Part shown: in pieces, positions 8,966 to 54,851 of the stretch | Layout of the letters: the number at the start of each line of letters is the position of its first letter | How positions within the stretch are numbered: position 1 is the stretch's first letter | Assembly (NCBI RefSeq): GCF_008041945.1 | Contig: NZ_VKAD01000001.1 | Coordinates: 930,001 to 994,000, forward strand | DNA length: 64,000 nt | Reading direction: 5' to 3' | From: Reinekea thalattae | Lineage (GTDB): Bacteria > Pseudomonadota > Gammaproteobacteria > Pseudomonadales > Natronospirillaceae | Made by a program: the position numbers and the translations under genes | Notes under the pieces: model-generated | Seen by the model: only the letters and a program-made list of their open reading frames with translations | The model's database searches: none | What the model was told of the DNA's origin: nothing

Positions 8966-11413
8966 ATGTTTGTCTTACGTCGCATCGTGCAAAAGGTTTT
9001 ATTCTGGTGGGTTCGCGTGGCCGAAAACCCGCATCACACTAATTTTGATGAACTGAAAAAACATAAAAACTGTATCTATGTACTCGAACATCAATCTACT
9101 TCTGATGCGCTAGTTTCTGACCACCAGCTGCAAAAGCACGGCTTGGCCAGTATTTACGATGAACTCGACATTCCAAATCTTAGCAATGAATCCCGTCTAT
9201 TGACCGTACATTCACGTAATTCTGTGATTCGGGCTAAAAAAGAAGGTATTAACAGCCGCCTTAAAAACCTATTAGAGTTTTTAGCCGATAACCCAGAGCA
9301 GGACATTCTGTTGGTGCCTGTTGCGCTATTTTGGGGGCGCGCCTCTTCCGCCAAACTGGGCGCTGTTAACGCGCTTTTCAGTTCCAACTGGACTGTGATT
9401 GGCCGTTTTAAAAAGCTGTTCACCCTAATATTTAATGGCCGCGATACCTTTTTTGAAATTAACGAACCCATTTCCTTACGCGAAATTTTTGATGAAACTC
9501 CCGACTTATCGATCGCTTCACGTAAGGTCGCGCGTATTCTTCGAGTGCATTTTCGCCGCGTACGTACTGCTGCCATTGGCCCAGACTTATCGCACAAGCG
9601 TGTACTCATTGAACAGCTACTGAAAACCGACCCAGTACGCAAAGCAATTAGTGCGCACTCCAAGGCCAAAGGCGTTCCTATTGAAAAGTCACGCAAAGTC
9701 GCCTTAAAAAATGCACAGGCCATTGCTGCGGATCTTTCCTACAGCACGATCCGCATGTACGACATTGTGCTTACCAAACTTTGGAATAAGATCTACAACG
9801 GTATCGAGCTGCACGGTATTGAGCCAGTCAGAGAGTTAGCCAAAGATCACGAAATTGTCTACGTACCCTGCCACCGAAGCCATATTGACTACCTGCTATT
9901 AAGTTACACCTTGCACCGTAACGGCCTAAGCGTGCCGCACATTGCTGCCGGTGAAAACCTAAACATGCCCATTGTTGGTGGCATTTTGCGTCGCGGTGGT
10001 GCTTTCTTTATTCGCCGTAAATTTGGTGGCGATAAACTCTATACCGCAGTCTTCAATGAATATATCCATACTGTATTCTCACGCGGCTTCCCGGTGGAAT
10101 ACTTTGTCGAAGGCGGCCGTTCCCGTACAGGCCGTATGCGTTCACCGGCAACCGGTACACTGGCAATGACGGTACGCAGCCACTTACGCAATTCAGAAAA
10201 ACCGATTGCGTTTATTCCGGTCTATATCGGTTACGAAAAAGTCTTTGAAAGCCGCTCTTATGTTGGCGAACTAAAGGGCAAGGATAAAAAGAAAGAAAAC
10301 CTGTTCGACTTAGTAAAGTCAGTGAAACATTTAAAAAATTACGGCCGTGTTTACCTGAATTTTGGTCAGGCGATTTCATTAAACAGCCAGCTGGAGCAAC
10401 ATAAGCCGGACTGGAATGAAGCGACCTATGGCCCGAACGACCGCCCTGAATGGATGTTTTCTTTTGTTGATCAATTGGCGATTCAGGTGGTTAAACGCAT
10501 TAACTCAGCCGCGGCGCTAAACCCTATTAACATGGTCGCGACTGCCCTGCTTTCTACTCCGCGACAAGCCATTGAAAGCAGCCTGTTGTTAGAACAGTTA
10601 AAGCTGTTGAAAAGCCTTCATCAGGCGGTACCACTGAGCGAGCATATTACACTGCCAGAGAGTCGCCCTGAAGAATGGGTTGAATACGCCGTTGGCATGG
10701 GCACCTTGCAACGCATTCCACAAAAGCTGGGTGATCTATACGGTTTGGATGGTCAAAACACCATTACCATGTCGTATTACCGTAACAACGTGCAGCATAT
10801 CTTTGCACTGCCATCGTTAATTGCTGCGTTAGTGGTGAGAGCCGAAGGTGTCGCAAAGTCGGCACTGATGGAACAGATCGGAATGATTTTTCCGTACATT
10901 CAAAACGAACTGTTTATTGAGCTGTCTGGCGAAACACTGCAAGCCAAAGCCGAGCAAACATTGGCGTTTATGGCTGAGCAAGGCATTCTGTCAATCGACA
11001 AACAAGGTCTTGTTCAAGCGCCAGACAAAGCCTCAGACAATAACTTACAGTTGCAGTACCTTGCCAATATTATGCTACCAACGCTGGAGCGCTACCTCAT
11101 TACGCTTTCAGTCTTGGTGCGCTTAGGCTCAGGTAACTGCTCGCAAGCCATTCTTGAAAACCAATCGCAGCAAATGGCGCAGCGACTGGCATTGCTTAAC
11201 GGCTTGGATGCACCAGAATTCTTCGACAAAGCCCTGTTTAAAAGCTTTATTCAAGCTCTTAAAACCAAGGGTGTGTTAACGCTCAACGAAGAAGCAAACT
11301 TGGCTTACGATGAACGTATCCATAACATTATCTCGCAAGCTTCGTTTGTTATCCCAGATGATGTCTGGCACAACATTCACCAAATCATTCAGCGATCAAC
11401 GCAAGAAGGCTAA
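8966..11413 (+). CDS. plsB: Glycerol-3-phosphate 1-O-acyltransferase
   Basis: An 815-residue inner-membrane-associated enzyme that acylates sn-glycerol-3-phosphate at position 1, the first step of phospholipid synthesis. The acyltransferase motifs are intact: the HX4D box HRSHID (about residues 303-308), GGAFFIRR, VEYFVEGGRSRTGR and IPVYIGYEKV. Length equals the usual 800-830 of gammaproteobacterial PlsB. The first residues (MFVLRRIVQKVLFWWVR) match the family N-terminus, so the ATG at 8966 is taken. Its last four bases overlap the tail of rsmJ on the opposite strand. Confidence 0.96.
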   Translation: MFVLRRIVQKVLFWWVRVAENPHHTNFDELKKHKNCIYVLEHQSTSDALVSDHQLQKHGLASIYDELDIPNLSNESRLLTVHSRNSVIRAKKEGINSRLKNLLEFLADNPEQDILLVPVALFWGRASSAKLGAVNALFSSNWTVIGRFKKLFTLIFNGRDTFFEINEPISLREIFDETPDLSIASRKVARILRVHFRRVRTAAIGPDLSHKRVLIEQLLKTDPVRKAISAHSKAKGVPIEKSRKVALKNAQAIAADLSYSTIRMYDIVLTKLWNKIYNGIELHGIEPVRELAKDHEIVYVPCHRSHIDYLLLSYTLHRNGLSVPHIAAGENLNMPIVGGILRRGGAFFIRRKFGGDKLYTAVFNEYIHTVFSRGFPVEYFVEGGRSRTGRMRSPATGTLAMTVRSHLRNSEKPIAFIPVYIGYEKVFESRSYVGELKGKDKKKENLFDLVKSVKHLKNYGRVYLNFGQAISLNSQLEQHKPDWNEATYGPNDRPEWMFSFVDQLAIQVVKRINSAAALNPINMVATALLSTPRQAIESSLLLEQLKLLKSLHQAVPLSEHITLPESRPEEWVEYAVGMGTLQRIPQKLGDLYGLDGQNTITMSYYRNNVQHIFALPSLIAALVVRAEGVAKSALMEQIGMIFPYIQNELFIELSGETLQAKAEQTLAFMAEQGILSIDKQGLVQAPDKASDNNLQLQYLANIMLPTLERYLITLSVLVRLGSGNCSQAILENQSQQMAQRLALLNGLDAPEFFDKALFKSFIQALKTKGVLTLNEEANLAYDERIHNIISQASFVIPDDVWHNIHQIIQRSTQEG

Positions 11414-12189
11414 TCGTCTGTCAGCGCCTTTTTGGCGTAGATATCGAATCGACTGCTCTTACCAATAAGAGCGGTCGATGGCTTTTTATCATCCAACCAA
11501 GGCGCGTTTTTAGGCCTTTTCACCACCACTCGATAATTTGCTAACGCCAATGCTGGCGCAAGTAATGAGTCGGCATCTGCATCGGCACCAACAAGCTGGT
11601 GAAAAATCGCCATATCCTTTTTTACCTTGGCCGACTTAGAACGGTCAGGAAACATTGGGTCCAGATAAACCACATCAACAGAAACCGTCTCAGCAACGGC
11701 ACCCAAGTTCAGTAACGAGCCATTTAGTAAGGTTAAGCGAGCCGATAGATCTGTTAACTCAGAAGCAGACAAGCGTTCTAAACCATTTTGTAACAGCAGA
11801 TTGACCACCGGATGACGTTCAAACATATAGACAGTCGCACCTTGTGAGGCCATGACAAAGGAATCACGAGCCAAGCCTGCGGTGGCATCTAAGATTGTTA
11901 AATGCTTACGTTTTTTTAAACCAACCGCCTTACACACAGCTTGACCAGCGCCGCCGCCGTAAAGACGTCGATGCTCTGAACTGGATGATAAAAAATCAAC
12001 ACTGACCGCATGCACCTTCGGCCAATCGCTGCTAGCAATTGAGAGCTGGCCATTGTCGATCAGAATAAAGGCTTGATCGCTCGGTTGGTTTGGCTGAATG
12101 TCGATCCAATCCAAAGCTTGGCAAGTCTGCAACAGAGACTGGTGGCTCGGCTCACTGGTATCTGGGCAATAGAGGGCAATAGGCTGCAT
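11410..12189 (-). CDS. rsmJ: 16S rRNA (guanine-1516-N2)-methyltransferase
   Basis: A 259-residue SAM-dependent methyltransferase of the RsmJ family, which methylates G1516 of 16S rRNA. It has the SAM-binding segment ILDATAGLARDSFVMASQG, followed by the acidic VYMFERHP strand that contacts the ribose, and the motif IV-like VDVVYLDPMFPDR. Length matches the E. coli enzyme (about 250). The gene overlaps plsB tail to tail by four bases with no room for a separate terminator. Confidence 0.93.
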   Translation of the reverse strand: MQPIALYCPDTSEPSHQSLLQTCQALDWIDIQPNQPSDQAFILIDNGQLSIASSDWPKVHAVSVDFLSSSSEHRRLYGGGAGQAVCKAVGLKKRKHLTILDATAGLARDSFVMASQGATVYMFERHPVVNLLLQNGLERLSASELTDLSARLTLLNGSLLNLGAVAETVSVDVVYLDPMFPDRSKSAKVKKDMAIFHQLVGADADADSLLAPALALANYRVVVKRPKNAPWLDDKKPSTALIGKSSRFDIYAKKALTDD

Positions 12190-12213
12190 GAAAGAGTCGC
12201 TCGATAATTGCGG

Positions 12214-12603
12214 TTAAACGTAGGTATCTACACCAAACAAACTGGGGTTTTGTGCGCTTAATGAATCAGCATCCTCTGCTGCCACGGATAAATATTGGTT
12301 CACCGCAGCCTGAGCATTGCCACCGCTGGCGCGTTGTACAGGATGCTCAGGATAATACTGATGATTGCCAGACTCAGTCTGGGCTGAAGAATTAACACTA
12401 TATAAAGCTTGGGCTTGGCTGGTTGCACTTTGCAAATCGACATTGGTCGATTGTGATGAGGCCGCTGCCTCTTCTGTTGCGCTGTCGACAGTTTGCGCAA
12501 AGCCACCGGATTGGCCTGCAGAATCATCCGTTAACGGTGCGCTATTGCGGCGGCCAGAAGCCGCCACCGATTGATACGCATTAATAGAAGCCGGTATTTT
12601 CAT
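12214..12603 (-). CDS. Small Ala/Ser/Gln-rich protein, unknown
   Basis: A 129-residue protein rich in Ala, Ser and Gln, predicted largely disordered, with no signal peptide or membrane segment. The two ends look most constrained: MKIPASINAYQSV at the start and AAVNQYLSVAAEDADSLSAQNPSLFGVDTYV-like sequence at the end. It lies directly upstream of rsmJ on the same strand (24-bp gap) and may share its transcript. I do not recognise a family. Codon use in frame is normal, and a competing 75-residue frame inside it looks like a shadow. Confidence 0.55.
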   Translation of the reverse strand: MKIPASINAYQSVAASGRRNSAPLTDDSAGQSGGFAQTVDSATEEAAASSQSTNVDLQSATSQAQALYSVNSSAQTESGNHQYYPEHPVQRASGGNAQAAVNQYLSVAAEDADSLSAQNPSLFGVDTYV

Positions 12604-12672
12604 GAATAGTCTAAATCCGATCAGCTCGATAATTTAACTAGGTCAGTCACCAATTAGGCTAGCCGCCCTGAA

Positions 12673-13485
12673 TTAAAAAGCACCGCTAAAAGCGATGGCG
12701 AACAACAGCGCACCTAACAATAATCGATATATTACAAAGACTAAGAAACCACAGCGTTCGATCCAACGCAAGAACAAAACAATACAACCCAGCGCACTGA
12801 TAAAAGACAATGCCACACCAAGCAAAATTGCCGAAACATCGTAGGCCGCAGGCGATTGCACAAGCTCAACTGTTTTTAATCCTCCGGCACAGAGAATTAA
12901 CGGTATCGACAACAAAAAACTAAAGCGCGCAGCTTCTGATCGGCTTAACCCCAAAAGCAGCCCTGCTGTCATGGTAATACCGGATCGGGACGTTCCCGGG
13001 ATCAATGCAACTGCCTGAGCGATACCAATGAACAAGCTGTTGCGCCAAGTTAATTGCTGATTCTGAGACTGCTTTTTAGCAGCACTGTCGGCATACCAAA
13101 GCAACAGACCAAATAACACCGTTGTTGCGCCAATCACTAAAATACTGCGCAGGTGCGTCTCAATAAGATCGCCAGCAAAAAAACCAACAATGAGCGCAGG
13201 AATAGTGCCGATAATGATAAACCAAGCTTGGTTTACCAACGCCTTCTGATATGGCTTTTTCAATAAAAAATAGACAAAGTTAACACTGATATCAGCGATT
13301 AAGCGGCGAAAATAGATCATCACCGCCATTAGCGAGCCGACATGCACAGCAACATCAAATGCCAAACCCTGATCCGGCCAACCAAATAATTGAGAGGGCA
13401 AAATAAGGTGTGCCGAGCTCGATATCGGTAAAAATTCCGTTAAGCCCTGAATCACCGCAAGAACAACTAATTGGTAAAATCCCAT
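12673..13485 (-). CDS. uppP: Undecaprenyl-diphosphatase
   Basis: A 270-residue polytopic inner-membrane enzyme (BacA/UppP family) that dephosphorylates undecaprenyl pyrophosphate to recycle the lipid carrier of peptidoglycan synthesis. Both catalytic segments are intact: QGLTEFLPISSSAHL near the N-terminus and IPGTSRSGITM at about residues 160-170. About seven or eight hydrophobic helices are visible and the length matches the family (265-275). It follows tsaB on the same strand with a 114-bp gap that contains a tandem repeat. Confidence 0.96.
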   Translation of the reverse strand: MGFYQLVVLAVIQGLTEFLPISSSAHLILPSQLFGWPDQGLAFDVAVHVGSLMAVMIYFRRLIADISVNFVYFLLKKPYQKALVNQAWFIIIGTIPALIVGFFAGDLIETHLRSILVIGATTVLFGLLLWYADSAAKKQSQNQQLTWRNSLFIGIAQAVALIPGTSRSGITMTAGLLLGLSRSEAARFSFLLSIPLILCAGGLKTVELVQSPAAYDVSAILLGVALSFISALGCIVLFLRWIERCGFLVFVIYRLLLGALLFAIAFSGAF

Positions 13486-43330: not shown

Positions 43331-44554
43331 ATGAAACGCGTTGTTGTCACAGGCATGGGCATTGTCTCATGCATCGGTAACGATATAGACACCGTTACCG
43401 ACTCGTTAAAAGCAGGCCGATCTGGCATTAGCTTTGACCAAACCTATGCAGATATGGGCATGCGCAGCCATATTAGCGCCAAGCCTGTTATCGACCTTGC
43501 CGAGCACATTGATCGTAAATCAATTCGCTTTATGGGTGATGCGGCTGGCTATGCTTATGTCTCTATGGATCAAGCCATTAAAGACGCAGGCCTCACTGAA
43601 GAACAGGTATCGAACCCTCGCACCGGTATCATTGCCGGCTCTGGTGGCGCTGATTCAGCTAGCCAAACCGAAGCTGCTGATATTATGCGTGAAAAAGGCG
43701 TAAAACGCGTTGGCCCTTACCGAGTAACCCAAACCATGGGTTCTACTGTATCTGCTTGTCTTGCAACTGCGTTTAAAATTAAAGGCGTTAACTATTCAAT
43801 CTCTTCTGCTTGCTCAACCAGTGCTCACTGTATTGGTAACGCAATGGAACTGATCCAATTAGGTAAGCAGGATGTTGTTTTTGCTGGCGGCGGTGAAGCC
43901 TTACATTGGACCATGAGCTCGTTATTCGACGCCATGGGCGCATTATCAACCAAATACAACGACAACCCAGAAGCGGCTAGCCGAGCATACGATGCTGACC
44001 GTGATGGTTTTGTTATTGCTGGCGGCGGTGGCATGGTTGTCTTAGAAGAGCTAGAGCACGCAAAAGCACGCGGCGCGACCATTTACGGTGAGCTAGTTGG
44101 CTATGGCGCAACTAGCGATGGCTACAACATGGTAGCTCCAAGCGGTGAAGGCGCTGTACGTTGTATGCAAATGGCTCTCGACAATGTCGACGGCAAAATT
44201 GATTACATCAACGCTCATGGCACAAGCACACCGGCTGGCGACATTACAGAATTAAACGCTGTACGCCAGGTATTCGGTGACGAGCTGCCTGCTATTGCTT
44301 CGACAAAATCGCTAACCGGCCATAGCCTTGGCGCTACCGGCGTACAAGAAGCGATCTACTCTCTTATCATGATGGATAAAAAGTTTATCGCTGCGAGTAA
44401 AAATGTCGATAACCTAGACCCTGAAGCAGGTGACAACATCAACATTGTCACAGAGCTGCAAGAAAACGCAGAGCTGAACCTTGTGATGTCAAACAGCTTC
44501 GGCTTTGGCGGTACAAACGCAACACTTGTCTTTAAACGCTACTCGGACGCTTAA
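43331..44554 (+). CDS. fabB: 3-oxoacyl-ACP synthase I
   Basis: A 407-residue condensing enzyme that elongates cis-3-decenoyl-ACP. The catalytic Cys161 lies in SSACSTSAH, and the two His in [11 protein letters not shown] and [12 protein letters not shown]. The C-terminal [10 protein letters not shown] is typical. Its stop codon lies inside the first copy of a 16-bp tandem repeat. The operon terminator is at 44686. Confidence 0.97.
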
Positions 44555-44616
44555 GTGCTTTTTAACTTAAGTGCTTTTTAACTTAAGTGCTTTCCTAACT
44601 TAAGTACTGTTTTAGC
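44551..44616. repeat. Four 16-17-bp tandem repeats beginning at the fabB stop
   Basis: TTAAGTGCTTTTTAAC at 44551-44566 and 44567-44582 are identical; 44583-44599 (17 bp) and 44600-44616 are diverged. The first copy contains the fabB TAA stop, so the repeat grew at the gene end. Confidence 0.8.
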
Positions 44617-44839: not shown

Positions 44840-45757
44840 ATGGCACTAAACGATTACGTCACTACTTTTGGCCAATACCTCAAAGCCAAATACGGTGAAA
44901 AAATTTACAAGCTATCGTTGCATGCCAACGTTACCTGTCCAAATCGAGATGGCAGCAAAGGCATTGGCGGCTGTACTTTTTGCAACAACAAAAGCTTTTT
45001 CCCCAACCACATGAATGCAAATGCCAGCATTAGTGAACAGATTGAATGCAACGTTGTACAGCTGCAAAAAAAAACCCAAGCAAAAAAATTTCTCGCCTAT
45101 TTTCAAGCCTATTCAAATACCTACGGCGACATCGAATACTTAAAAAAAATATATGTTGAGTCTCTTAAACCTGACTGCGTTATTGGTTTGTGTGTTGGCA
45201 CTCGACCCGATTGTATTTCGAACGACGTATTAAATTTATTGCAAAAAATTAAAGACCTAGGCTTCGAAGTATGGATTGAATTGGGGCTGCAAAGTGCCCA
45301 TGACGTAACGCTCGAACGAGTCAATCGAGGTCATACTTTCGTTGAATATCAAGACGCTGTTCGACGAATAAAAAACGCTAAAATTAATCTCTGTACTCAT
45401 CTAATTGCTGGACTTCCCGGTGAGAATAAATCAATGATTTTAGACTCTTGGCAGCAGGTACTTAATGAAGGTGTACAAGGCATAAAGTGGCACCCATTAC
45501 ATATTGTTAAAGGCACTCAACTGGCTCGTCAATGGCGTCAAGGTGAGTATCAACCAATCACTCAGGAAGACTATATTGATATTGTCTCGGATGCCCTAGC
45601 AGCAACCCCTGCGGAGGTTATCGTGCATCGAGCAATGTCCACAGTCGCACAAAAACAACTGTTATTAGCGCCGCATTGGACTGAGAATCGCTGGCCAATA
45701 ATGACAGGTATTGAAGCTAAATTAGCGCAAGCAAAACAGTTAAAAACCAGCGCCTAA
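44840..45757 (+). CDS. yhcC: Radical SAM protein, TIGR01212/YhcC family
   Basis: A 305-residue radical SAM enzyme. The cluster-binding Cys pattern is Cys33-x11-Cys45-x2-Cys48 (CPNRDG...GGCTFCNN), as expected for the YhcC group rather than the usual CxxxCxxC. The core continues with CVGTRPDC, WIELGLQSAHD and HLIAGLPGE. The YhcC group is widespread and of uncertain substrate, proposed to act in RNA or nucleotide modification. Single gene here. Confidence 0.88.
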   Translation: MALNDYVTTFGQYLKAKYGEKIYKLSLHANVTCPNRDGSKGIGGCTFCNNKSFFPNHMNANASISEQIECNVVQLQKKTQAKKFLAYFQAYSNTYGDIEYLKKIYVESLKPDCVIGLCVGTRPDCISNDVLNLLQKIKDLGFEVWIELGLQSAHDVTLERVNRGHTFVEYQDAVRRIKNAKINLCTHLIAGLPGENKSMILDSWQQVLNEGVQGIKWHPLHIVKGTQLARQWRQGEYQPITQEDYIDIVSDALAATPAEVIVHRAMSTVAQKQLLLAPHWTENRWPIMTGIEAKLAQAKQLKTSA

Positions 45758-46021
45758 TTGAATTTTTTTTAACCCTAAAGGAAGACATTATCGATAAATA
45801 ATAAGCCAACTCCCCAAGTAAAAAAGATAATTTCTCAGCCACAAAATAACCCCTTTACAATCATGACCAGTTAGACAAAAACTAGAAGTGCAGTCGGTTA
45901 TTTGACACAATCAGCTTTTAAATTTGAACAGATCTTAGCTTGGCATTTTGACTCGCTAAGAAATACCTACTCATCACATCTTCTTATTGTTTTTGATGTA
46001 TTAAGAGGACAGAGAAACTTA

Positions 46022-46216
46022 ATGATCTCTCAAGACCAAACACTCGAAGCTCTAGAGCAAGCCATCGAAGATGCCGAAGCTGCTAAACGAGCATTCGTCA
46101 AAGAAAACCCAAACGGCACTGGCGACAAAGCCGAACGAATCCGGCTGTATAACCGTGTTGAAGCTGCTCGAAAATCATTAAGAGAATACAAGAGATTAAA
46201 CCCTCAGCCGCTTTAA
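46022..46216 (+). CDS. Small helical protein, unknown
   Basis: A 64-residue protein starting MISQDQTLEALEQAI, acidic in the first half and basic in the second (KSLREYKRLNPQPL), predicted as a two-helix coiled coil. The ATG at 46022 follows AGAGAAACTTA; a TTG at 45902 would add 40 residues of different character. The gene is closed by a good terminator, which supports it being real. I do not recognise the family. Confidence 0.6.
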   Translation: MISQDQTLEALEQAIEDAEAAKRAFVKENPNGTGDKAERIRLYNRVEAARKSLREYKRLNPQPL

Positions 46217-46249
46217 CTCCCTTCTCTATAAATCCAAAATAATCACTCT

Positions 46250-46274
46250 AGCCTAACTCTGTTGTTAGGCTTTT
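46250..46274 (+). terminator. Terminator of the small protein gene
   Basis: AGCCTAAC (46250-46257), loop TCTGTT, GTTAGGCT (46264-46271), followed by a T-run. Confidence 0.8.
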
Positions 46275-46324
46275 ATACAATGACCTACAGGGCACATCGA
46301 CAACTTCACAAAACAGACAGATCG

Positions 46325-46370
46325 GTCTATTTATTGAGCTTTGGTTATGTATAATCACGCCTAAATAGAC
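46325..46370 (+). promoter_or_regulatory. Promoter of lipoprotein gene 1 with inverted arms
   Basis: TATAAT at 46350-46355. Perfect 9-bp inverted arms GTCTATTTA (46325-46333) and TAAATAGAC (46362-46370) flank it with a 28-nt spacer. The same layout recurs in all four units. The predicted leader is about 150 nt. Confidence 0.6.
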
Positions 46371-46512
46371 AGTTGGCTCTGATTTTCATTCCTACCACCT
46401 CGTTAATCTAAAAAACCATCGTCACACTCTCAACCCAGCACCTCTATCGGTGCCTTTTGCATAGCTTCGATTGAGCGGCTGCATTAGGACCTGTTGTATA
46501 AAGGAAAAAGCA

Positions 46513-47994
46513 TTGAAACCATTACATCTCATTTTTGTTTGCAGCCTAGTATTTTTAGTTAGCTGTAGCTCTTCAAGCGATAATTCTTCACCTGCTGATA
46601 CCGACGGCGATGGCGTGAGCGACAATGCCGATGCATTCCCTAATGACCCTGCTGAAACTACTGATACAGACAGTGATGGTGTTGGTGATAACGCAGATGC
46701 TTTCCCTAATGATCCATCTGAAACCACCGACACAGACGGCGATGGTATTGGCGACAATGCCGATGTAGATGATGACAACAATGGTCTGATTGATATAAGT
46801 AGCCTAGAACAACTTGACTGGATACGTAATAACTTGGCTGGTACATCTCTAGACGATGGCATATCACTGAATGGCAGTGACGAGGGTTGTTATATCGTTA
46901 CTGGTTGCAACGGTTATGAGCTTACTCAAGACCTCGATTTTGACACCAATGACGATGGCGTGATGAATGCGGATGACACCTATTATGACTATGACGGTGA
47001 TAGCAGTAACAGTGGTTGGTTACCAATCGGCACAGAGGCAGCACCTTTTACTGCCATTTTTGAGGGCAACGACTATGAAATAAAGAACCTCTACATCAAC
47101 CGCCCATCGGCAGATACAGAAACCAGCGGCTTAAATATTGGGCTATTTGGCTATATAGATGGCAGCACCAGCACAGCAGAACTTCGCAATATTGGACTAG
47201 TCGGTGAGCTAATGAGCGTCACAGGTTATGAAAACACAGGCGGGCTTGTTGGTTACGCAAGCGACAGCAGCATTACAGCAAGCTACACCACCGGCGCAGT
47301 TACTGGGGATACAAACACAGGCGGGCTTGTTGGTTACGCAAGTGACAGCAGCATTACAGCAAGCTACACCACCGGCGCAGTTACTGGGGATACAAACACA
47401 GGCGGACTTGTTGGTTACGCGACAAACGACAGCAGCATTACGAAAAGCTACGCCACCAGCACAGTTACTGGGTCAGGCAGGTATACAGGCGGGCTTGTTG
47501 GTCATTTGAGATCTAGCAGCAGCATTACAGCAAGCTACGCCAGCGGCGCAGTTACTGGGCAGCACGACATAGGCGGGCTTGTCGGTTATATGATTTTTGG
47601 CAGCAGTATTACGGCAAGTTATGCCACCGGCGCAGTCGTTACTACCTTCGTCGATAGTACCGGCGGGCTTATTGGGCTTGTGATCGCTACCAGCTCCGTC
47701 AGTACCATTAGTATTACCAAGAGCTACTGGGCGACCGATAGCAGCGAGCAAAGTGACGCCACTGGCTCAATATCTGGTGATGCGCTGGAGCTTGATGATA
47801 CCACTGGCGCAACCCTCGCCGAGCTAAAATGCCCAACTGCAGCGAATAACATCACTTGCTTATCAGAAACAACAGGCGAAACGCTTTATGCCGGTTGGGA
47901 TGCTATTGATCACGATAACGATGATACAACAGATCCAATTAGCCCTTGGGTTTTTGGTGACAGCGATACATTACCAACGCTGTCGTTTGATTAA
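46513..47994 (+). CDS. Tandem lipoprotein 1: calcium-type repeats plus GLUG repeats
   Basis: A 493-residue predicted outer-membrane or surface lipoprotein. TTG start with AAGGAAAA upstream; signal peptide with lipobox LVSC (Cys18; Ser at +2 favours the outer membrane). Three DTDGDGVSDNADAFPNDP-type thrombospondin-3-like calcium repeats follow (about residues 27-95), then a constant region (LDWIRNNLAGTSLDDG, CNGYELTQDLDF, GWLPIGTEAAPFTAIFEG, IKNLYINR) and six GLUG repeats of the TGGLVGYASDSSITASYTTG type, two of them exact 27-residue copies. The near-constant C-terminus ends DTLPTLSFD. Ligand unknown; adhesin or surface-coat role is inferred. First copy of four. Confidence 0.85.
   Translation: MKPLHLIFVCSLVFLVSCSSSSDNSSPADTDGDGVSDNADAFPNDPAETTDTDSDGVGDNADAFPNDPSETTDTDGDGIGDNADVDDDNNGLIDISSLEQLDWIRNNLAGTSLDDGISLNGSDEGCYIVTGCNGYELTQDLDFDTNDDGVMNADDTYYDYDGDSSNSGWLPIGTEAAPFTAIFEGNDYEIKNLYINRPSADTETSGLNIGLFGYIDGSTSTAELRNIGLVGELMSVTGYENTGGLVGYASDSSITASYTTGAVTGDTNTGGLVGYASDSSITASYTTGAVTGDTNTGGLVGYATNDSSITKSYATSTVTGSGRYTGGLVGHLRSSSSITASYASGAVTGQHDIGGLVGYMIFGSSITASYATGAVVTTFVDSTGGLIGLVIATSSVSTISITKSYWATDSSEQSDATGSISGDALELDDTTGATLAELKCPTAANNITCLSETTGETLYAGWDAIDHDNDDTTDPISPWVFGDSDTLPTLSFD
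47232..47393 (+). repeat. 81-bp near-perfect duplication of one GLUG repeat
   Basis: 47232-47312 and 47313-47393 are almost identical (one mismatch seen, AGCGAC against AGTGAC). They encode two successive 27-residue GLUG repeats, evidence of recent in-frame slippage within lipoprotein 1. Confidence 0.85.
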
Positions 47995-48043
47995 GCTGTC
48001 GCTGAGTTGAACTTTTTAACTTTGCCGTGAGCCTACAAAATTG

Positions 48044-48067
48044 AAAGGAGCCATCGGCTCCTTTTTT
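48044..48067 (+). terminator. Terminator of lipoprotein gene 1
   Basis: AAAGGAGCC, loop ATC, GGCTCCTTT followed by T-run to 48067; 9-bp stem. Identical in units 2 and 3. Confidence 0.88.
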
Positions 48068-48133
48068 ATTTTAATAGCGTCTATACAATTACCAATAAAG
48101 TTACATCGACAACCTCACAAAATATACAGACTG

Positions 48134-48179
48134 GTCTATTTATTGAGTTTTGGTTATGTATAATCGCGCCTAAATAGAC
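48134..48179 (+). promoter_or_regulatory. Promoter of lipoprotein gene 2 with inverted arms
   Basis: TATAAT at 48159-48164 between GTCTATTTA (48134-48142) and TAAATAGAC (48171-48179), spacer 28 nt, as in the other units. Confidence 0.6.
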
Positions 48180-48321
48180 AGTTGGCTCAGATTTTCATTT
48201 GCACCCACCTCGTTAATCTAAAAAACCATCGTCACACTCTCAACCCAGCACCTCTATCGGTGCCTTTTGCATAGCTTCGATTGAGCGCTGCATTAGGACC
48301 TGTTGTATAAAGGAAAAAGCA

Positions 48322-49746
48322 TTGAAACCATTACATCTCATTTTTGTTTGCAGCCTAGTATTTTTAGTTGGCTGTAGCTCTTCAAGCGATAATTCTTCAC
48401 CTGCTGATACCGACGGCGATGGCGTGAGCGACAATGCCGATGCATTCCCTAATGACCCAGCTGAAACTACCGATACAGACGGCGATGGTGTTGGCGACAA
48501 TGCCGATGTATTCCCTAATGATCCATCTGAAACCACCGACACAGATAACGATGGTGTTGGCGACAATGCCGATGCATTCCCTAATGACCCAGCTGAAACT
48601 ACCGATACAGACGGTGATGGTGTTGGTGACAATGCTGATGCATTCCCTAATGACCCATCTGAAACCACCGACACAGACGGTGATGGTGTTGGCGACAATG
48701 CAGATATAGACGACAACGACAATGGCTTAATCGAAATCAGCAGCCTAGAACAACTTGACTGGATACGTAATAACTTGGCTGGTACATCTCTAGACGATGG
48801 CATATCACTGAATGGCAGTGACGAGGGTTGTTATCTCGTTACTGGTTGTAACGGTTATGAGCTTACTCAAGACCTCGATTTTGACACCAATGGCGATGGT
48901 TTCATGGACGCTAACGATGACTACTATGACTATGACGGCGATAGCAGTAATAGTGGTTGGCTGCCAATCGGCACAGAGACAGCACCTTTTACTGCCATTT
49001 TTGATGGCAATGGTTATGAAATAAAGAACCTTTATATCAATCGCTCATCGGCAGATACAGAAACCAGCGGCTTAAATATTGGGCTATTTGGCTATACAGA
49101 TGGCAGCACCAGCACATCGGAGATTCTCAATATTGGACTAGCCGGTGAGCTCATGAGCGTCACAGGTGATCAAAACACTGGCGGACTTGTTGGTTATGCA
49201 ACAGAATTCAGCAGCATTACTGTAAGTTACGCCACTGGCGCAGTCACTAGCTCGCGTAGTGCAGGCGGGCTTGTTGGCAAAAGCGAAAAGATTAGCATTA
49301 CAGCAAGCTACGCCACTGGCGCAGTTACTGTGTCCTCGTTTTATGCCGGCGGGCTTGTTGGCTTGGCGAGTACCGATAGCAGCATTACAGCAAGCTACGC
49401 CATCGGTGCAGTTACTGGATCGGATTATACAGGCGGACTTGTTGGCGCTGTGTCTGGCACTGACGTTAGCATTAGTGCCAGTCACTGGGCGAGCGACAGC
49501 AGTAACCAAAGTGACGCTATTGGCACTTCTTTCGGTACGTCGACCGTTGACGCCACTGGCGCAGAGTTGACTCAGCTGCAATGCCCAACTTCAGCGAATA
49601 ACATCACTTGCTTATCAGAAACAACAGGCGAAACGCTTTATGCCGGTTGGGATGCTATTGATCACGATAACGATAATACAACAGATCCAATTAGCCCTTG
49701 GGTTTTTGGTGACAGCGATACATTACCAACGCTGTCGTTTGATTAA
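48322..49746 (+). CDS. Tandem lipoprotein 2: calcium-type repeats plus GLUG repeats
   Basis: A 474-residue paralogue of the previous gene. TTG start, lipobox LVGC at Cys18. It has five DTDGDG/DTDNDG calcium-type repeats, the largest number in the array, followed by the same constant block (GLIEISSLEQLDW, CNGYELTQDLDF, GWLPIG) and only four GLUG repeats of different sequence (GGLVGKSEK, GGLVGLAST). The last 55 residues (CPTSANNITCLSE to TLPTLSFD) are nearly identical to copies 1, 3 and 4. So the extra calcium repeats coincide with a shorter GLUG part. Confidence 0.85.
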   Translation: MKPLHLIFVCSLVFLVGCSSSSDNSSPADTDGDGVSDNADAFPNDPAETTDTDGDGVGDNADVFPNDPSETTDTDNDGVGDNADAFPNDPAETTDTDGDGVGDNADAFPNDPSETTDTDGDGVGDNADIDDNDNGLIEISSLEQLDWIRNNLAGTSLDDGISLNGSDEGCYLVTGCNGYELTQDLDFDTNGDGFMDANDDYYDYDGDSSNSGWLPIGTETAPFTAIFDGNGYEIKNLYINRSSADTETSGLNIGLFGYTDGSTSTSEILNIGLAGELMSVTGDQNTGGLVGYATEFSSITVSYATGAVTSSRSAGGLVGKSEKISITASYATGAVTVSSFYAGGLVGLASTDSSITASYAIGAVTGSDYTGGLVGAVSGTDVSISASHWASDSSNQSDAIGTSFGTSTVDATGAELTQLQCPTSANNITCLSETTGETLYAGWDAIDHDNDNTTDPISPWVFGDSDTLPTLSFD

Positions 49747-49795
49747 GCTGTCGCTGAGTTGAACTTTTTAACTTTGCCGTGAGCCTACAAAATTG

Positions 49796-49819
49796 AAAGG
49801 AGCCATCGGCTCCTTTTTT
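49796..49819 (+). terminator. Terminator of lipoprotein gene 2
   Basis: Same AAAGGAGCC-ATC-GGCTCCTTT stem as unit 1, T-run to 49819. Confidence 0.88.
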
Positions 49820-49885
49820 ATTTTAATAGCGTCGATACTATTACCAATGTAGTTACATCGACAACTTCACAAAATATACAGACTG

Positions 49886-49931
49886 GTCTATTTATTGAGT
49901 TTTGGTTATGTATAATCGCGCCTAAATAGAC
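49886..49931 (+). promoter_or_regulatory. Promoter of lipoprotein gene 3 with inverted arms
   Basis: TATAAT at 49911-49916 between GTCTATTTA (49886-49894) and TAAATAGAC (49923-49931), spacer 28 nt. Confidence 0.6.
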
Positions 49932-50083
49932 AGTTGGCTCAGATTTTCATTTGCACCCACCTCGTTAATCTAAAAAACCATCGTCACACTCTCAACCCAG
50001 CACCTCTATTAGCGCCTTTTGCATAGCTTCGATTTAGCGGCTGCATTAGGACCTGTTGTATAAAGGAAAAAGCATTGAAAGCA

Positions 50084-51535
50084 TTGAAACCATTACATCT
50101 CATTTTTGTTTGCAGCCTAGCATTTTTAGTTGGTTGCAATCCTTCAAGCGATAATTCTTCACCTACTGATACCGACGGCGATGGCATGAGCGACAATGCC
50201 GATGCACTCCCAAATGACGCATCTGAAACTACTGATACCGACGGCGACGGCATAGACGATAACAGTGATAACTGCCCATCAGCCACCAACGAAGACCAAG
50301 CCGATAGCGACGGTGATCTAGTCGGTAATGCCTGTGACATCGACGACAACGACAATGGCTTAATCGAAATCAGCAGCCTAGAACAACTTGACTGGATACG
50401 TAATAACTTGGCTGGTACATCTCTAGACGATGGCATATCACTGAATGGCAGTGACGAGGGTTGTTATCTCGTTACTGGTTGCAACGGTTATGAGCTTACT
50501 CAAGACCTCGATTTTGACACCAATGACGATGGCGTGATGAATGCGGATGACACCTATTATGACTATGACGGTGATAGCAGTAACAGTGGTTGGCTGCCAA
50601 TTGGCACAAAAGACAGCCCCTTTACTGCCATTTTTGAGGGCAACGACTATGAAATACGCAACCTCTATATCAACCGAAGCTATGGCGATAACGAAACAAG
50701 TGGAAGTTATATTGGTCTTTTTGGCTATCTAGACAATGGCAGCTCAGTCAACGCCGAAATACGCAATATTGGCTTAACCGGTGAACTTATGGATGTCACT
50801 GGTGGCGCATATACAGGTGGGCTGGTCGGCTATATGCAATACACTACCATCACTTCAAGCTACACCACCGGCAAAGTCTCTGGAGCTGGGAGCCGTGTAG
50901 GTGGGCTGGTTGGTCACATGGGATTTTCTAACATGACTTCAAGTTACACCACCGGCACAGTCACTGGTGGCGCGAATTATACAGGCGGGCTTGTTGGTAG
51001 TAGTTATTACAACAACATTGTAACAAGCTACTCTAGCGCTTCTATCTCTGCTCAGTATGCTACAGCTGGGCTTATTGGCCAAGCGGTTGGTGATAATATC
51101 GTAGCAAGTTACGCCACTGGTACAGTCGCTGGGGGAAATTTTACAGCCGGACTTATTGGCCAAGCGTATAATAGTAGCATCACAGCAACTTACTTTAGTG
51201 GATCATTCGATCGTGCAAGTGGTACAAGCGGCGGACTCGTTGCTCTTATAGAGAATAGCAGCTTGACAGCCAGTTACTGGGCAACAGACATCAGCAATCA
51301 AAGTGACGCTGTTGGTGAGAATACTGACTCGACGGTTGACGCCACTGGCGCAGAGTTGACTCAGCTGCAATGCCCAACTTCAGCGAATAACATCACTTGC
51401 TTATCAGAAACAACAGGCGCAACCTTGTATGCCGGTTGGGATGCTATTGATCACGATAACGATGATACAACAGATCCAATTAGCCCTTGGGTTTTTGGTG
51501 ACAGCGATACATTACCAACGCTGTCGTTTGATTAA
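50084..51535 (+). CDS. Tandem lipoprotein 3: divergent calcium repeats plus GLUG repeats
   Basis: A 483-residue paralogue. A 9-bp duplication (ATTGAAAGC) gives two possible TTG starts, 50075 and 50084; the second fits the other copies. Lipobox LVGC. Its calcium-repeat block differs: three units, with the canonical thrombospondin-3 form DNCPSATNEDQADSDGD...NACD including two Cys, not seen in copies 1, 2 and 4. Six GLUG-type repeats include variants TAGLIGQAV and SGGLVALIE. The flanking constant block and C-terminus stay close to the others, so the middle seems to have been replaced or to have diverged independently. Confidence 0.85.
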   Translation: MKPLHLIFVCSLAFLVGCNPSSDNSSPTDTDGDGMSDNADALPNDASETTDTDGDGIDDNSDNCPSATNEDQADSDGDLVGNACDIDDNDNGLIEISSLEQLDWIRNNLAGTSLDDGISLNGSDEGCYLVTGCNGYELTQDLDFDTNDDGVMNADDTYYDYDGDSSNSGWLPIGTKDSPFTAIFEGNDYEIRNLYINRSYGDNETSGSYIGLFGYLDNGSSVNAEIRNIGLTGELMDVTGGAYTGGLVGYMQYTTITSSYTTGKVSGAGSRVGGLVGHMGFSNMTSSYTTGTVTGGANYTGGLVGSSYYNNIVTSYSSASISAQYATAGLIGQAVGDNIVASYATGTVAGGNFTAGLIGQAYNSSITATYFSGSFDRASGTSGGLVALIENSSLTASYWATDISNQSDAVGENTDSTVDATGAELTQLQCPTSANNITCLSETTGATLYAGWDAIDHDNDDTTDPISPWVFGDSDTLPTLSFD

Positions 51536-51584
51536 GCTGTCGCTGAGTTGAACTTTTTAACTTTGCCGTGAGCCTACAAAATTG

Positions 51585-51608
51585 AAAGGAGCCATCGGCT
51601 CCTTTTTT
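51585..51608 (+). terminator. Terminator of lipoprotein gene 3
   Basis: Same 9-bp stem as units 1 and 2, T-run to 51608. Confidence 0.88.
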
Positions 51609-51674
51609 ATTTTAATAGCGTCTATACAATTACCAATAAAGTTATATCGACAACCTCACAAAATATACAGACTG

Positions 51675-51720
51675 GTCTATTTATTGAGTTTTGGTTATGT
51701 ATAATCGCGCCTAAATAGAC
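51675..51720 (+). promoter_or_regulatory. Promoter of lipoprotein gene 4 with inverted arms
   Basis: TATAAT at 51700-51705 between GTCTATTTA (51675-51683) and TAAATAGAC (51712-51720), spacer 28 nt. Confidence 0.6.
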
Positions 51721-51862
51721 AGTTGGCTCAGATTTTCATTTGCACCCACCTCGTTAATCTAAAAAACCATCGTCACACTCTCAACCCAGCACCTCTATCG
51801 GTGCCTTTTGCATAGCTTCGATTGAGCGCTGCATTAGGACCTGTTGTATAAAGGAAAAAGCA

Positions 51863-53281
51863 TTGAAACCATTACATCTCATTTTTGTTTGCAGCCTAGT
51901 ATTTTTAGTTAGCTGTAGCTCTTCAAGCGATAATTCTTCACCTGCTGATACCGACGGCGATGGCGTGAGCGACAATGTCGATGCATTCCCTAATGACCCA
52001 GCTGAAACTACCGATACAGACGGCGATGGTGTTGGCGACAATGCCGATGTATTCCCTAATGACCCGTCTGAAACTACCGATACCGACAGCGATGGTGTTG
52101 GTGATAACGCAGATGCATTCCCTAATGATCCATCTGAAACCACCGACACAGATAACGATGGTGTTGGCGACAATGCGGATGTAGATGATGACAACAATGG
52201 CTTAATCGAAATCAGCAGCCTAGAGCAACTTGACTGGATACGTAATAACTTGGCTGGCACATCTCTAGACGATGGCATATCACTGAATGGCAGTGACGAG
52301 GGTTGTTATATCGTTACTGGTTGCAACGGTTATGAGCTTACTCAAGACCTCGATTTCGATACCAATGGCGATGGCGTGATGAATGCGGATGACACCTATT
52401 ATGACTATGACGGCGATAGCAGTAATAGTGGTTGGCTGCCAATCGGCACAGAGGCGGCACCTTTTACTGCCATTTTTGATGGCAATGATTTTGAGGTGTT
52501 TAACCTTTACATCAACAGAGCCGCTACCGATGCTGAAACTAGTGGTGAGAATATCGGCTTATTTGGTTACGTGAACCGCACCTCGACCAACGCGGAGATA
52601 CGCAATATTGGCTTAACTGGTGAGCTCATGAGTGTCACAGGTGACAAATATACAGGTGGACTTATTGGTACTGCTGATTACACCAATATTACTGCAAGCT
52701 ATGCCACCGGCGAGGTCACAGGTGACAAAGATGCAGGTGGACTTATTGGTAATGCTTATGAAACCAATATTACTGCAAGCTACGCCACCGGTTCGGTCAC
52801 GGGTGACAGTTATACGGGCGGATTTGCTGGCGTTTCTGCTTACAGCAGCATAACGGCAAGCTACGCCACTGGTACAGTCACAGGTGTCAATAATACAGGC
52901 GGGTTTGTTGGCGAGATAGGTTTCGGAAGCATCGTGGCAAGCTACGCCACAGGTGCAGTTATTGGATCGAATTATACAGGCGGGTTTGCTGGCTCAAGTT
53001 TCAACGGTTTGGTAGCTGGTCACTGGGCGACCGATAATAGTGGCCAAATTGAAGCTATTGGCGATAACAGCGGTACGACAGATGACAGTATTGGCGCAAC
53101 ATTGGATCAGCTGCAATGCCCAACTTCAGCAAATAACATCATTTGCTTATCAGAAACAACAGGCGAAACGCTTTATGCCGGTTGGGATGCTATTGATCAC
53201 GATAGCGATTCAGCAACAGATCCAATTAGCCCTTGGGTTTTTGGTGACAGCGATACATTACCAACGCTGTCGTTTGATTAA
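51863..53281 (+). CDS. Tandem lipoprotein 4: calcium-type repeats plus GLUG repeats
   Basis: A 472-residue paralogue. TTG start, lipobox LVSC as in copy 1. It has four calcium-type repeats, then the constant block with a variant FDGNDFEVFNLYINRA, and five GLUG repeats, of which three are of the TGGFAG/TGGFVG form. The C-terminus is slightly changed (NNIICLSE, DHDSDSATDP). It is the last unit; the downstream terminator is weaker than in the others, suggesting this is the older edge of the array. Confidence 0.85.
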   Translation: MKPLHLIFVCSLVFLVSCSSSSDNSSPADTDGDGVSDNVDAFPNDPAETTDTDGDGVGDNADVFPNDPSETTDTDSDGVGDNADAFPNDPSETTDTDNDGVGDNADVDDDNNGLIEISSLEQLDWIRNNLAGTSLDDGISLNGSDEGCYIVTGCNGYELTQDLDFDTNGDGVMNADDTYYDYDGDSSNSGWLPIGTEAAPFTAIFDGNDFEVFNLYINRAATDAETSGENIGLFGYVNRTSTNAEIRNIGLTGELMSVTGDKYTGGLIGTADYTNITASYATGEVTGDKDAGGLIGNAYETNITASYATGSVTGDSYTGGFAGVSAYSSITASYATGTVTGVNNTGGFVGEIGFGSIVASYATGAVIGSNYTGGFAGSSFNGLVAGHWATDNSGQIEAIGDNSGTTDDSIGATLDQLQCPTSANNIICLSETTGETLYAGWDAIDHDSDSATDPISPWVFGDSDTLPTLSFD

Positions 53282-53330
53282 GCTGTCGTTGAGTTGGACT
53301 TTTTAACTCAGCCGTGAATCTACAAAATTG

Positions 53331-53351
53331 AGAGGAGCCATCGGCTCCTTT
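53331..53351 (+). terminator. Terminator of lipoprotein gene 4
   Basis: AGAGGAGCC, loop ATC, GGCTCCTTT: the stem of the other units with one G-T pair; the T-run is broken by a C. Confidence 0.7.
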
Positions 53352-53573
53352 CTTATTTTAACGGATTATGTTCTTTAACCTGTGTGGCCCATCATCCGCT
53401 TGTGCCCATATCTCTCTCTCCAGAAAACCCTGCGACTATTTATTCTGACAATAATATAAAGCACGCCTTGATCTAAAATTTTTAATATACTTCTGTTACT
53501 TCTTTTATTTGGGCCTAAACAGCATTAACGCTGCCCTATAAAATAATTTGATCAATAAAAGTGAAAACCTACT

Positions 53574-54851
53574 ATGTTAAAACGTAAACCCTATTGTTTA
53601 GTGCTTGGCGGCGGCGGCGCAAAAGGCGTTTATCACATTGGTGTCTGGCAAGCGCTCAGAGAACTGCGTATTCCAGTTAATGCTTTTATTGGCAATTCTA
53701 TTGGTGCCATTATGGGGGCTTTTTTCGCTCAACATGACGAAGACAAACTGATCGAAATATCCGAAAACATCGATATCAACTCTCTGATTCAATTTGCCGA
53801 CGAAGAACACAGCGACAAAGGCAACTCTCTTCGTCAATCGATAAAATACTGGCAAGCGGCTTCACAAAAGTTAATCCAGCGTAAGGGGCTAGATACCCGC
53901 CCTATTCGCAAGCTGCTCGAACAAGCACTCGATGAACAGCGCATTCGACAGTCTGGTTATGACTTTGGCATAACGACCATTAACGTTAGTGACCTTCAGC
54001 CCAGAGACGTTTTCATAGAAAACATGGAAGCAGGCGAGCTGATTAATTACGTACTTGCCAGTGCCTCCTTCCCTGGTTTTGAACAACCCACTATTGCTGG
54101 AAAAAAATACATCGACGGCGGACTTTACGACAACCTTCCCTATCGCATGGCACGGCAACGCGGTTATCGCAAAATCATCTTAGTGGATATTTCAGGTATT
54201 GGCGTCAGTCGCCGCCCTAAAACCGAAGGCTCAGAAACTATCTATATAAAAAATTCGATCGATATGGGCAGTGTTTTCGACTTCAGCTCAGACTTTATGG
54301 TGCAATACCGACAACTCGGCTATCTAGATACCATGCGAGTGTTTGGCAAACTCAAAGGTTATCGTTATTTTTTAAAAAACAAAGATCGCTTAGAGAAAAA
54401 GTGGCAAGCCAAACAGCAACATAACGAATCCTTAGCCAAGCTAAAAAAATACTTTCCAGATGAGATGAAGCACGACCGACGTGACTTACTCAAAATTGTC
54501 GATACCTGTGCTCAATTATTGCAGGTAGATAAAATTAAAGCCTACAGTTTTTCTGATCTGATCAGCGCCATCAACGAAGAGCTAGCAGACACTGAGAACA
54601 AAGCTAAGCGCTTTTTGGCTAAGCATCACCTAGACAGCGATCAAGCTACGTTAAAGTTACTCGATGCGCTAACAAAAGAAGTGATGACGCGCGAATTGCT
54701 CAGCGAAAACCCTTACTACTATTATTTGCTGATGAAAGATCACAACCATAAGCGAACGATCGCGATCGCAGAAAAAGCACTTTTCGGCTTAGTTCCTGAG
54801 TTGGAGATTTTGAAGTTTTATTTAACCGATGTGCGCGACTTTCAGGCTTAG
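53574..54851 (+). CDS. Patatin-like phospholipase
   Basis: A 425-residue serine lipase-like protein with the patatin catalytic dyad. The oxyanion motif GGGGAKG is at residues 12-18, the nucleophile Ser42 in GNSIG, and the Asp in DGG at about 181 (YIDGGLYDNLP). No signal peptide is visible, so it acts in the cytoplasm or is exported by another route. The C-terminal 200 residues are charged and helical, with no family I can name. The ribosome site is weak. It is not obviously linked to the lipoprotein array upstream. Confidence 0.88.
   Translation: MLKRKPYCLVLGGGGAKGVYHIGVWQALRELRIPVNAFIGNSIGAIMGAFFAQHDEDKLIEISENIDINSLIQFADEEHSDKGNSLRQSIKYWQAASQKLIQRKGLDTRPIRKLLEQALDEQRIRQSGYDFGITTINVSDLQPRDVFIENMEAGELINYVLASASFPGFEQPTIAGKKYIDGGLYDNLPYRMARQRGYRKIILVDISGIGVSRRPKTEGSETIYIKNSIDMGSVFDFSSDFMVQYRQLGYLDTMRVFGKLKGYRYFLKNKDRLEKKWQAKQQHNESLAKLKKYFPDEMKHDRRDLLKIVDTCAQLLQVDKIKAYSFSDLISAINEELADTENKAKRFLAKHHLDSDQATLKLLDALTKEVMTRELLSENPYYYYLLMKDHNHKRTIAIAEKALFGLVPELEILKFYLTDVRDFQA

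Follow-up and report, generated by a model that had tools for sequence, protein, structure and literature searches.

Surface-protein repertoires in which variable centres stand between constant ends are familiar above all from pathogens exposed to immune pressure. According to the relevant part of PMC4534519, the surface proteins vlsE/vls of Borrelia and Msp2 of Anaplasma undergo gene conversion, a variable centre being bounded by conserved 5' and 3' ends, whereas Ehrlichia carries tandem full copies of outer-membrane protein genes, whose variation is ascribed there to differential expression and not to gene conversion. The lipoprotein loci ospC and dbpA of Borrelia are described, in the part of PMC11389397 that concerns them, as recombination hotspots with exchange both within and between species. 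A like anatomy is now apparent in a gammaproteobacterial genome, that of Reinekea thalattae, where a stretch of 64,000 nucleotides (positions 930,001 to 994,000 of contig NZ_VKAD01000001.1; hereafter "the window") contains an array of four complete paralogous genes for predicted GLUG-repeat lipoproteins in tandem on the forward strand (46274-53400; Table 1). The nearest relative that also bears an array is an uncultured Psychrosphaera. The ends and the centres of the genes have separate histories: in both genomes the ends are almost uniform from gene to gene, and the two genera have one centre in common. Among the open-licence papers listed by literature searches on GLUG, none was seen to deal with an array of GLUG lipoproteins.

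The array resembles vlsE and Msp2 in having conserved ends around a variable centre and in the recombination between copies. Those systems, as presented in the same source, rely on a single expression site and on donors in the same genome that are silent or pseudogenes, whereas each copy of the array looks complete and one centre is shared across genera. The tandem full copies of surface-protein genes in Ehrlichia provide another likeness, although the proteins are different ones and their variation is attributed in that account to differential expression. The exchange described for ospC and dbpA occurs among species of one clade, whereas the array links genomes between which housekeeping genes have reached synonymous saturation. 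The locus behaves partly like all of these systems, and it fits neither the silent-cassette nor the slippage definition.

Each of the four units consists of a leader, a coding sequence (CDS), and a closing 10-pair hairpin followed by T-rich sequence. The predicted proteins (472-493 amino acids, aa) comprise, in this order, a lipobox signal, Asp-rich calcium-type repeats, a conserved core, GLUG repeats, and the C-terminus. The lipobox, judged by eye, reads LVSC or LVGC and lies at residues 15-18 in units 1, 2, and 4 and at residues 18-21 in unit 3; an N-terminal signal with a lipobox cysteine, which defines bacterial lipoproteins, is present and predicts lipidation. The calcium-type repeats (three to five of the type D-x-D-x-D-G in every protein) are separated by an additional conserved core of 88 codons from four to six GLUG-type repeats, and the last 21 residues are identical across all four proteins. 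Open reading frames (ORFs), Pfam, and a hairpin scan confirm the tandem array of four units with TTG starts, lipoboxes, GLUG repeats, and terminator-like hairpins that a preliminary description, made from the sequence alone, had proposed; of the spacing it gave (1762-1809 bp), the upper value holds but the lower does not, the measured start-to-start distances being 1809, 1753, and 1788 bp.

A base-by-base alignment of the units bears out the proposed constant-variable-constant profile, with ends of high identity around divergent centres. The leader and signal are 92-100% identical in most alignment windows, except for the outermost leader of unit 1, which borders another gene and deviates (77-81%), and the C-terminal coding windows reach 90-100%, with the last stretch of unit 4, including the terminator, at 86-90%; over all units, the final three full windows at the C-terminal end range over 86-100%. 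Identity is lower in the calcium-type repeats, which differ in copy number and type (most in unit 3); across most of the core it is 82-100%, whereas the GLUG part lies mostly at about 53-79%. Synonymous differences between the units (pS, from a codon alignment) are 0.03-0.10 in the C-terminus, as against 0.16-0.32 for the core and 0.12-0.53 for the signal together with the calcium repeats. The segment before GLUG has 0.18-0.72 and the GLUG part 0.43-0.63; in the latter, non-synonymous change (0.27-0.33 per site) stays under the synonymous figure.

The near-identity of the ends extends beyond the coding regions. The junction between units 1 and 2 (47887-48369) and that between units 3 and 4 (51428-51910), which lie 3.5 kb apart and span the coding end, terminator, spacer, leader, and signal, are identical at 482 of 483 bases, and the same pair extended downstream shows three mismatches over 635 bases, which points to gene conversion or unequal exchange. 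In a Sawyer-type runs test of the four units (431 polymorphic sites among 1541 gap-free columns), none of 10000 shuffles was as extreme. At a smaller scale, two neighbouring 81-bp GLUG units in unit 1 are nearly identical, which suggests a recent internal duplication.

A scan of the genome collection returned four loci, among them one of an uncultured Psychrosphaera (L047) with two such genes in tandem (CDS 9743-11461 and 11885-13471), next to genes that are presumably of an efflux pump and in a neighbourhood that differs from that of the window array. The two Psychrosphaera genes show the same partition, with identities of 85-98% in leader and signal and 98-100% in the C-terminus around centre windows of 48-87%, most of which are below 77%. 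They have a leader and signal peptide of their own, unrelated to those of the window (leaders 30-47% identical by alignment window), and a C-terminal motif similar to that of the window units. The centre of unit 3, by contrast, is 86.9% identical to that of Psychrosphaera gene 2 over 1032 aligned bp, and the match includes an odd form of the calcium repeat. In this pair, pS is 0.25 before GLUG, 0.22 in GLUG, and 0.30 in the core, whereas the same two genomes differ by 0.75 in what we take to be fabB (401 codons) and by 0.76 in a presumed gcvP (779 and 948 codons, one gene read from two overlapping loci). These two genes are saturated at synonymous sites between the two genomes; even between the window genome and a second member of its genus (G002), the comparison genes reach 0.71-0.74. 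Vertical descent of a shared centre with a pS of 0.22-0.25 is therefore not credible, whereas a transfer of at least the centre is.

Other segments carry a different signal. Unit 4 and Psychrosphaera gene 1 have a pS of 0.32 over 65 codons before GLUG and of 0.74 in the GLUG part. The C-termini of the window and Psychrosphaera genes differ by 0.43-0.50, which falls short of saturation, so an older transfer may have taken more than the centres. The Psychrosphaera genes have a content of guanine plus cytosine (GC) of 0.47-0.48 between flanks of 0.36-0.39, whereas the window genes (0.47-0.49) lie between flanks of 0.44-0.45; this contrast hints at the Psychrosphaera genome as the recipient, with the reservation that repeats bias composition.

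Trees of six sequences, the four window units and the two Psychrosphaera genes, reject one single history. In the segment before GLUG, a clade of window units only is rejected (approximately unbiased test, AU, 1.8e-7), and two pairs emerge, unit 3 plus gene 2 and unit 4 plus gene 1, both with support 95. The GLUG part again unites unit 3 with gene 2 (support 100) and rejects the window-only clade (AU 0.016). The C-terminus separates the window units from the Psychrosphaera genes (support 100), and the three cross-genus pairings tested are rejected (AU <=5e-10). Runs test, synonymous contrast, and tree conflict characterize the locus as a mosaic of segments of different age, as defines a gene-converting multigene family; the synonymous divergence, the runs test, the conflicting trees, and the second array in another genus support the earlier suggestion of cassettes suited to recombination.

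This pattern is probably due to gene conversion that homogenizes the ends within each genome, with beta-solenoid centres coming from a pool exchanged across genera. The locus would then encode a repertoire: four predicted outer-membrane lipoproteins that each combine a lipid anchor, a short Asp-rich calcium-type stalk, the core, and a GLUG beta-solenoid. Recombination between units, by gene conversion or unequal exchange, would keep the leader, signal, core, C-terminus, and terminator alike within a genome, and the solenoid centres could be replaced by those of other copies, including copies in other genera, with the common core and C-terminus supplying the homology. The solenoids may be surface binding parts for adhesion or glycan binding, and their diversity may be retained as partners, surfaces, or phages differ, although both of these steps are less sure.

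Several observations weigh against this explanation. The N-terminal coding end and the core are less uniform than the C-terminus, and uneven constraint along the gene may inflate the runs test. The ratio of non-synonymous to synonymous change (dN/dS) is below 1 in the centres, so positive selection is, on average, unsupported. The Psychrosphaera genes drop to 78% and then 38% identity 3' of the coding end. The link between the genera is clear for one whole centre only, that between unit 4 and gene 1 being restricted to the 65 codons mentioned above, and no further shared centre emerged when 369 genomes sampled from the class were searched, with only two candidates scored per genome. The core tree rejects neither the window-only clade (AU 0.56) nor the pairing of unit 4 and gene 1 (AU 0.19), but it does reject that of unit 3 and gene 2 (AU 0.007), so exchanged and homogenized tracts appear to overlap in a complex manner. 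Homogenized ends were also looked for in the three-gene arrays of Marinibactrum and of genome G008, whose leaders proved not to be homogenized.

Among the alternatives, programmed antigenic or phase variation, with one unit expressed at a time and the others serving as donors, is unlikely. It would account for the constant-variable-constant anatomy, which resembles that given for vlsE and Msp2 in the pertinent part of PMC4534519, but all four units have a leader, start, stop, and terminator-like hairpin, and all ten protein-level matches to the unit 2 protein across the genome lie inside the array. The array shows no sign of the single expression site with promoterless donors by which a silent-cassette system is defined. 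Since neither a silent cassette nor a single expression site was found, all four proteins are probably made, and the intactness of the units argues for a repertoire and against a silent-cassette switch. Slippage-type phase variation, as in mycoplasmas, depends on a promoter tract made up of a long mononucleotide run or of short repeated units, which the leaders lack: no homopolymer in them exceeds six bases, and each holds only one A6 tract, identical in all four.

The leaders themselves share a conserved block with the palindrome-like motif AGAYYRGTCT, which is confined to the four leaders within the window, just upstream of TATAAT. A 20-base pattern derived from the leaders has four matches in the window against 0.01 expected, and no leader copies were found elsewhere in the genome. 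AGAYYRGTCT is a possible common operator, at which a single regulator might act, and TATAAT a possible -10 element. The individual promoters that had been assumed for each unit are supported only in part: every leader has a perfect TATAAT, but a promoter scan found no forward-strand site of >=9/12 upstream of any unit, which leaves a full sigma-70 promoter at the leaders unsupported.

If the units had arisen by recent tandem duplication and their GLUG parts alone had then come under strong diversifying selection, the tandem layout, the near-identical ends, and the two almost identical adjacent 81-bp GLUG units of unit 1 would be accounted for. This alternative is nevertheless very unlikely: the high synonymous divergence before and within the GLUG part, compared with that of the C-terminus, indicates that selection on amino acids is not the cause, dN/dS is below 1, and the centre of unit 3 is nearer to another genus than to the neighbouring units. 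Equally hard to sustain is purifying selection alone, which would preserve the ends for regulation, secretion, or folding and let the centres drift in the absence of gene conversion. The leader and C-terminus are plausibly functional, and the similar C-terminal motif of the Psychrosphaera genes is in line with such constraint, but at the two near-identical junctions the spacer that separates the terminator from the next leader is no less conserved than its surroundings, and the ends that are almost identical within a genome have, between genomes, unrelated leaders and substantial synonymous divergence in the C-terminus. An assembly artefact can practically be dismissed, because, although exact repeats of up to 265 bp within the array could mislead short-read assembly, all four centres differ, the array is internal to a 2.25-Mb contig of a five-contig assembly (genome 2.94 Mb), and a separate array of like anatomy exists in another genome.

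The likeliest build of the proteins is a lipid-anchored stalk with a binding solenoid. Pfam searches at E up to 1 returned only Glug and one weak TSP_3 match, and no catalytic or protease domain. Glug (PF07581) matches all four proteins with 39.7-66.5 bits, over its curated cut-off of 20.5 bits. The likeness of the calcium-type repeats to thrombospondin type 3 that had been noted is borne out by the D-x-D-x-D-G spacing in all four proteins but not by Thrombospondin type 3 (PF02412), which matches one of the four with 19.8 bits, under its 25-bit curated cut-off. For unit 4, an AlphaFold model built from 10 sequences has a mean predicted local distance difference test (pLDDT) score of 64 and a predicted template modelling (pTM) score of 0.65; it forms regular short strands at residues 231-380 (block pLDDT 82-96) and is of low confidence at the calcium repeats and the C-terminal end. 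Its best match among solved structures, and the sole one with E <=0.001, is 3n6z (BACOVA_03286 of Bacteroides ovatus; E 1.4e-4), with IgA1 proteases next; beta-helix proteins, pectate lyases among them, make up most of the weaker matches. Profile searches by sequence likewise lead to the GLUG part of IgA1 proteases (E 3.5e-5), with a weak match to thrombospondin (E 0.02).

The GLUG repeat is thus common to the array proteins, the GLUG part of IgA1 proteases, and BACOVA_03286, and the solenoid fold probably likewise. The array proteins differ from IgA1 proteases in their lipid anchor and Asp-rich stalk, in their four tandem copies, and in that no protease domain was found. An assignment to the IgA1 proteases was rejected, as neither Pfam nor NCBIfam detected a metalloprotease domain; the NCBIfam matches to ZmpA/ZmpB fall within the GLUG part, far under the cut-off. 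The residue at position +2 after the lipobox (Ser in units 1, 2, and 4; Asn in unit 3), together with the lipobox and the solenoid-like model, makes a surface location plausible, and the function may be surface binding, adhesion, or glycan binding. The four natural variants make the function of GLUG repeats testable through comparison.

The core is sparsely distributed. Of the 390 genomes examined in the order, 25 have it at E 1e-15 or better, and among the seven genomes of the genus only that of the window does. It was found in seven of 395 genomes of the Psychrosphaera family and, within the genus Psychrosphaera, in one of eight (E 1e-5). The surveys of the order and the Psychrosphaera family scored no more than 10 candidates from any genome. 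Related proteins with core and GLUG repeats as in the array and a related C-terminus are present in Psychrosphaera, Marinibactrum, Bermanella, and G008, in three of the four in tandem; unlike the window array, those of Marinibactrum and G008 have non-homogenized leaders, and in Bermanella one ORF holds two cores. Single, invariant, and non-tandem genes in the relatives would have spoken against the preliminary description, but as worded this condition is not the one encountered: within the genus the core was found only in the window's own genome, and tandem relatives occur in three other genomes.

Between the same flanking genes (window positions 45757-53574, compared with loci L061 and L062), G002 has one gene, presumably glycogen-debranching-like, and another relative in the genus (G005) has the same gene and others (about 12 kb). 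The array is absent from both, and the other genes between the flanks indicate that the spot is variable. A DNA search of the class with the whole array gave three foreign matches, all to the calcium-repeat stretch of unit 2 (73-78%). Part of the unit 3 centre had no match in a plasmid DNA search; a protein search of plasmids returned 31 records, all below 60% identity, and in none of them did a single place span 80% of the query. Among virus contigs, there was no confirmed relative.

There is evidence that a centre crossed genera while the frame remained local, which suggests a route by which bacteria acquire ready-made binding domains. A wider pool of interchangeable solenoid centres in marine gammaproteobacteria, with each lineage keeping its own frame of promoter, signal, C-terminus, and terminator uniform across an array through gene conversion and capturing foreign centres through the homology of core and C-terminus, can be put forward only tentatively. 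If it exists, captured foreign binding domains would fall at once under local expression and secretion.

Other arrangements of GLUG-core genes were encountered in the same surveys. In G008, which belongs to the family of the window's genome, a divergent array of three tandem GLUG-core genes (L037; G008:C1:5000000-5015000) has non-homogenized leaders and signals that appear, by eye, secreted and not of the lipoprotein type. The same genome has a dispersed pair of genes (L039 5571-7145 and L040 4535-6130) that is 97-99% identical around the start and 63-78% in much of the GLUG part, a constant-variable pattern without tandem layout. Several genomes, such as G310, G126, and G359, repeat cores within one very long open frame; in G310 (G310:C1:439009-452531), two adjacent open frames of about 2400 aa each contain several GLUG cores, as if an array had been fused.

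Table 1. Features of the GLUG lipoprotein array (positions in the window)
Feature	Position	Strand	Remarks
Unit 1	46274-48079	+	leader; CDS 46513-47994, TTG start, 493 aa; terminator-like hairpin 48043-48065
Unit 2	48080-49831	+	leader; CDS 48322-49746, TTG start, 474 aa; terminator-like hairpin 49795-49817
Unit 3	49832-51620	+	leader; CDS 50075-51535, TTG start, 486 aa; terminator-like hairpin 51584-51606
Unit 4	51621-53400	+	leader; CDS 51863-53281, TTG start, 472 aa; terminator-like hairpin 53330-53352
Conserved leader block	46319-46355 (unit 1), 48128-48164, 49880-49916, 51669-51705	+	AGAYYRGTCT, then TATAAT (46350-46355 in unit 1)
66-bp calcium-type repeats	46595-46765 (unit 1), 48406-48705 (unit 2), 51947-52181 (unit 4)	+	copy number variable
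GLUG repeats, unit 1	47232-47636	+	81-84 bp period; variable centre
Unit 3 centre, including calcium repeats and core	50164-51194	+	shared with Psychrosphaera gene 2 (L047)

The start of unit 1 was chosen by alignment to the other units (the ORF list has 46471), and unit 3 has a second TTG at 50084. Upstream of the array lie a presumably radical-SAM-like gene (44840-45757) and, between this gene and unit 1, an ORF of 104 aa without Pfam match (45902-46216); downstream follows a patatin-like phospholipase (53574-54851; identified by Pfam). Scans of the window with Rfam (gathering cut-off) and for tRNAs gave no matches; the locus is therefore not explained by a known RNA family or by insertion at a tRNA. 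FabA was identified through Pfam, and a 16-bp tandem repeat of 3.9 copies (44550-44614) is located immediately 3' of a gene that we take to be fabB. Antisense ORFs of 146-187 aa run across the calcium repeats of all four units (46422-46862, 48240-48803, 49984-50436, and 51781-52278) and are probably a by-product of the repeat codons.

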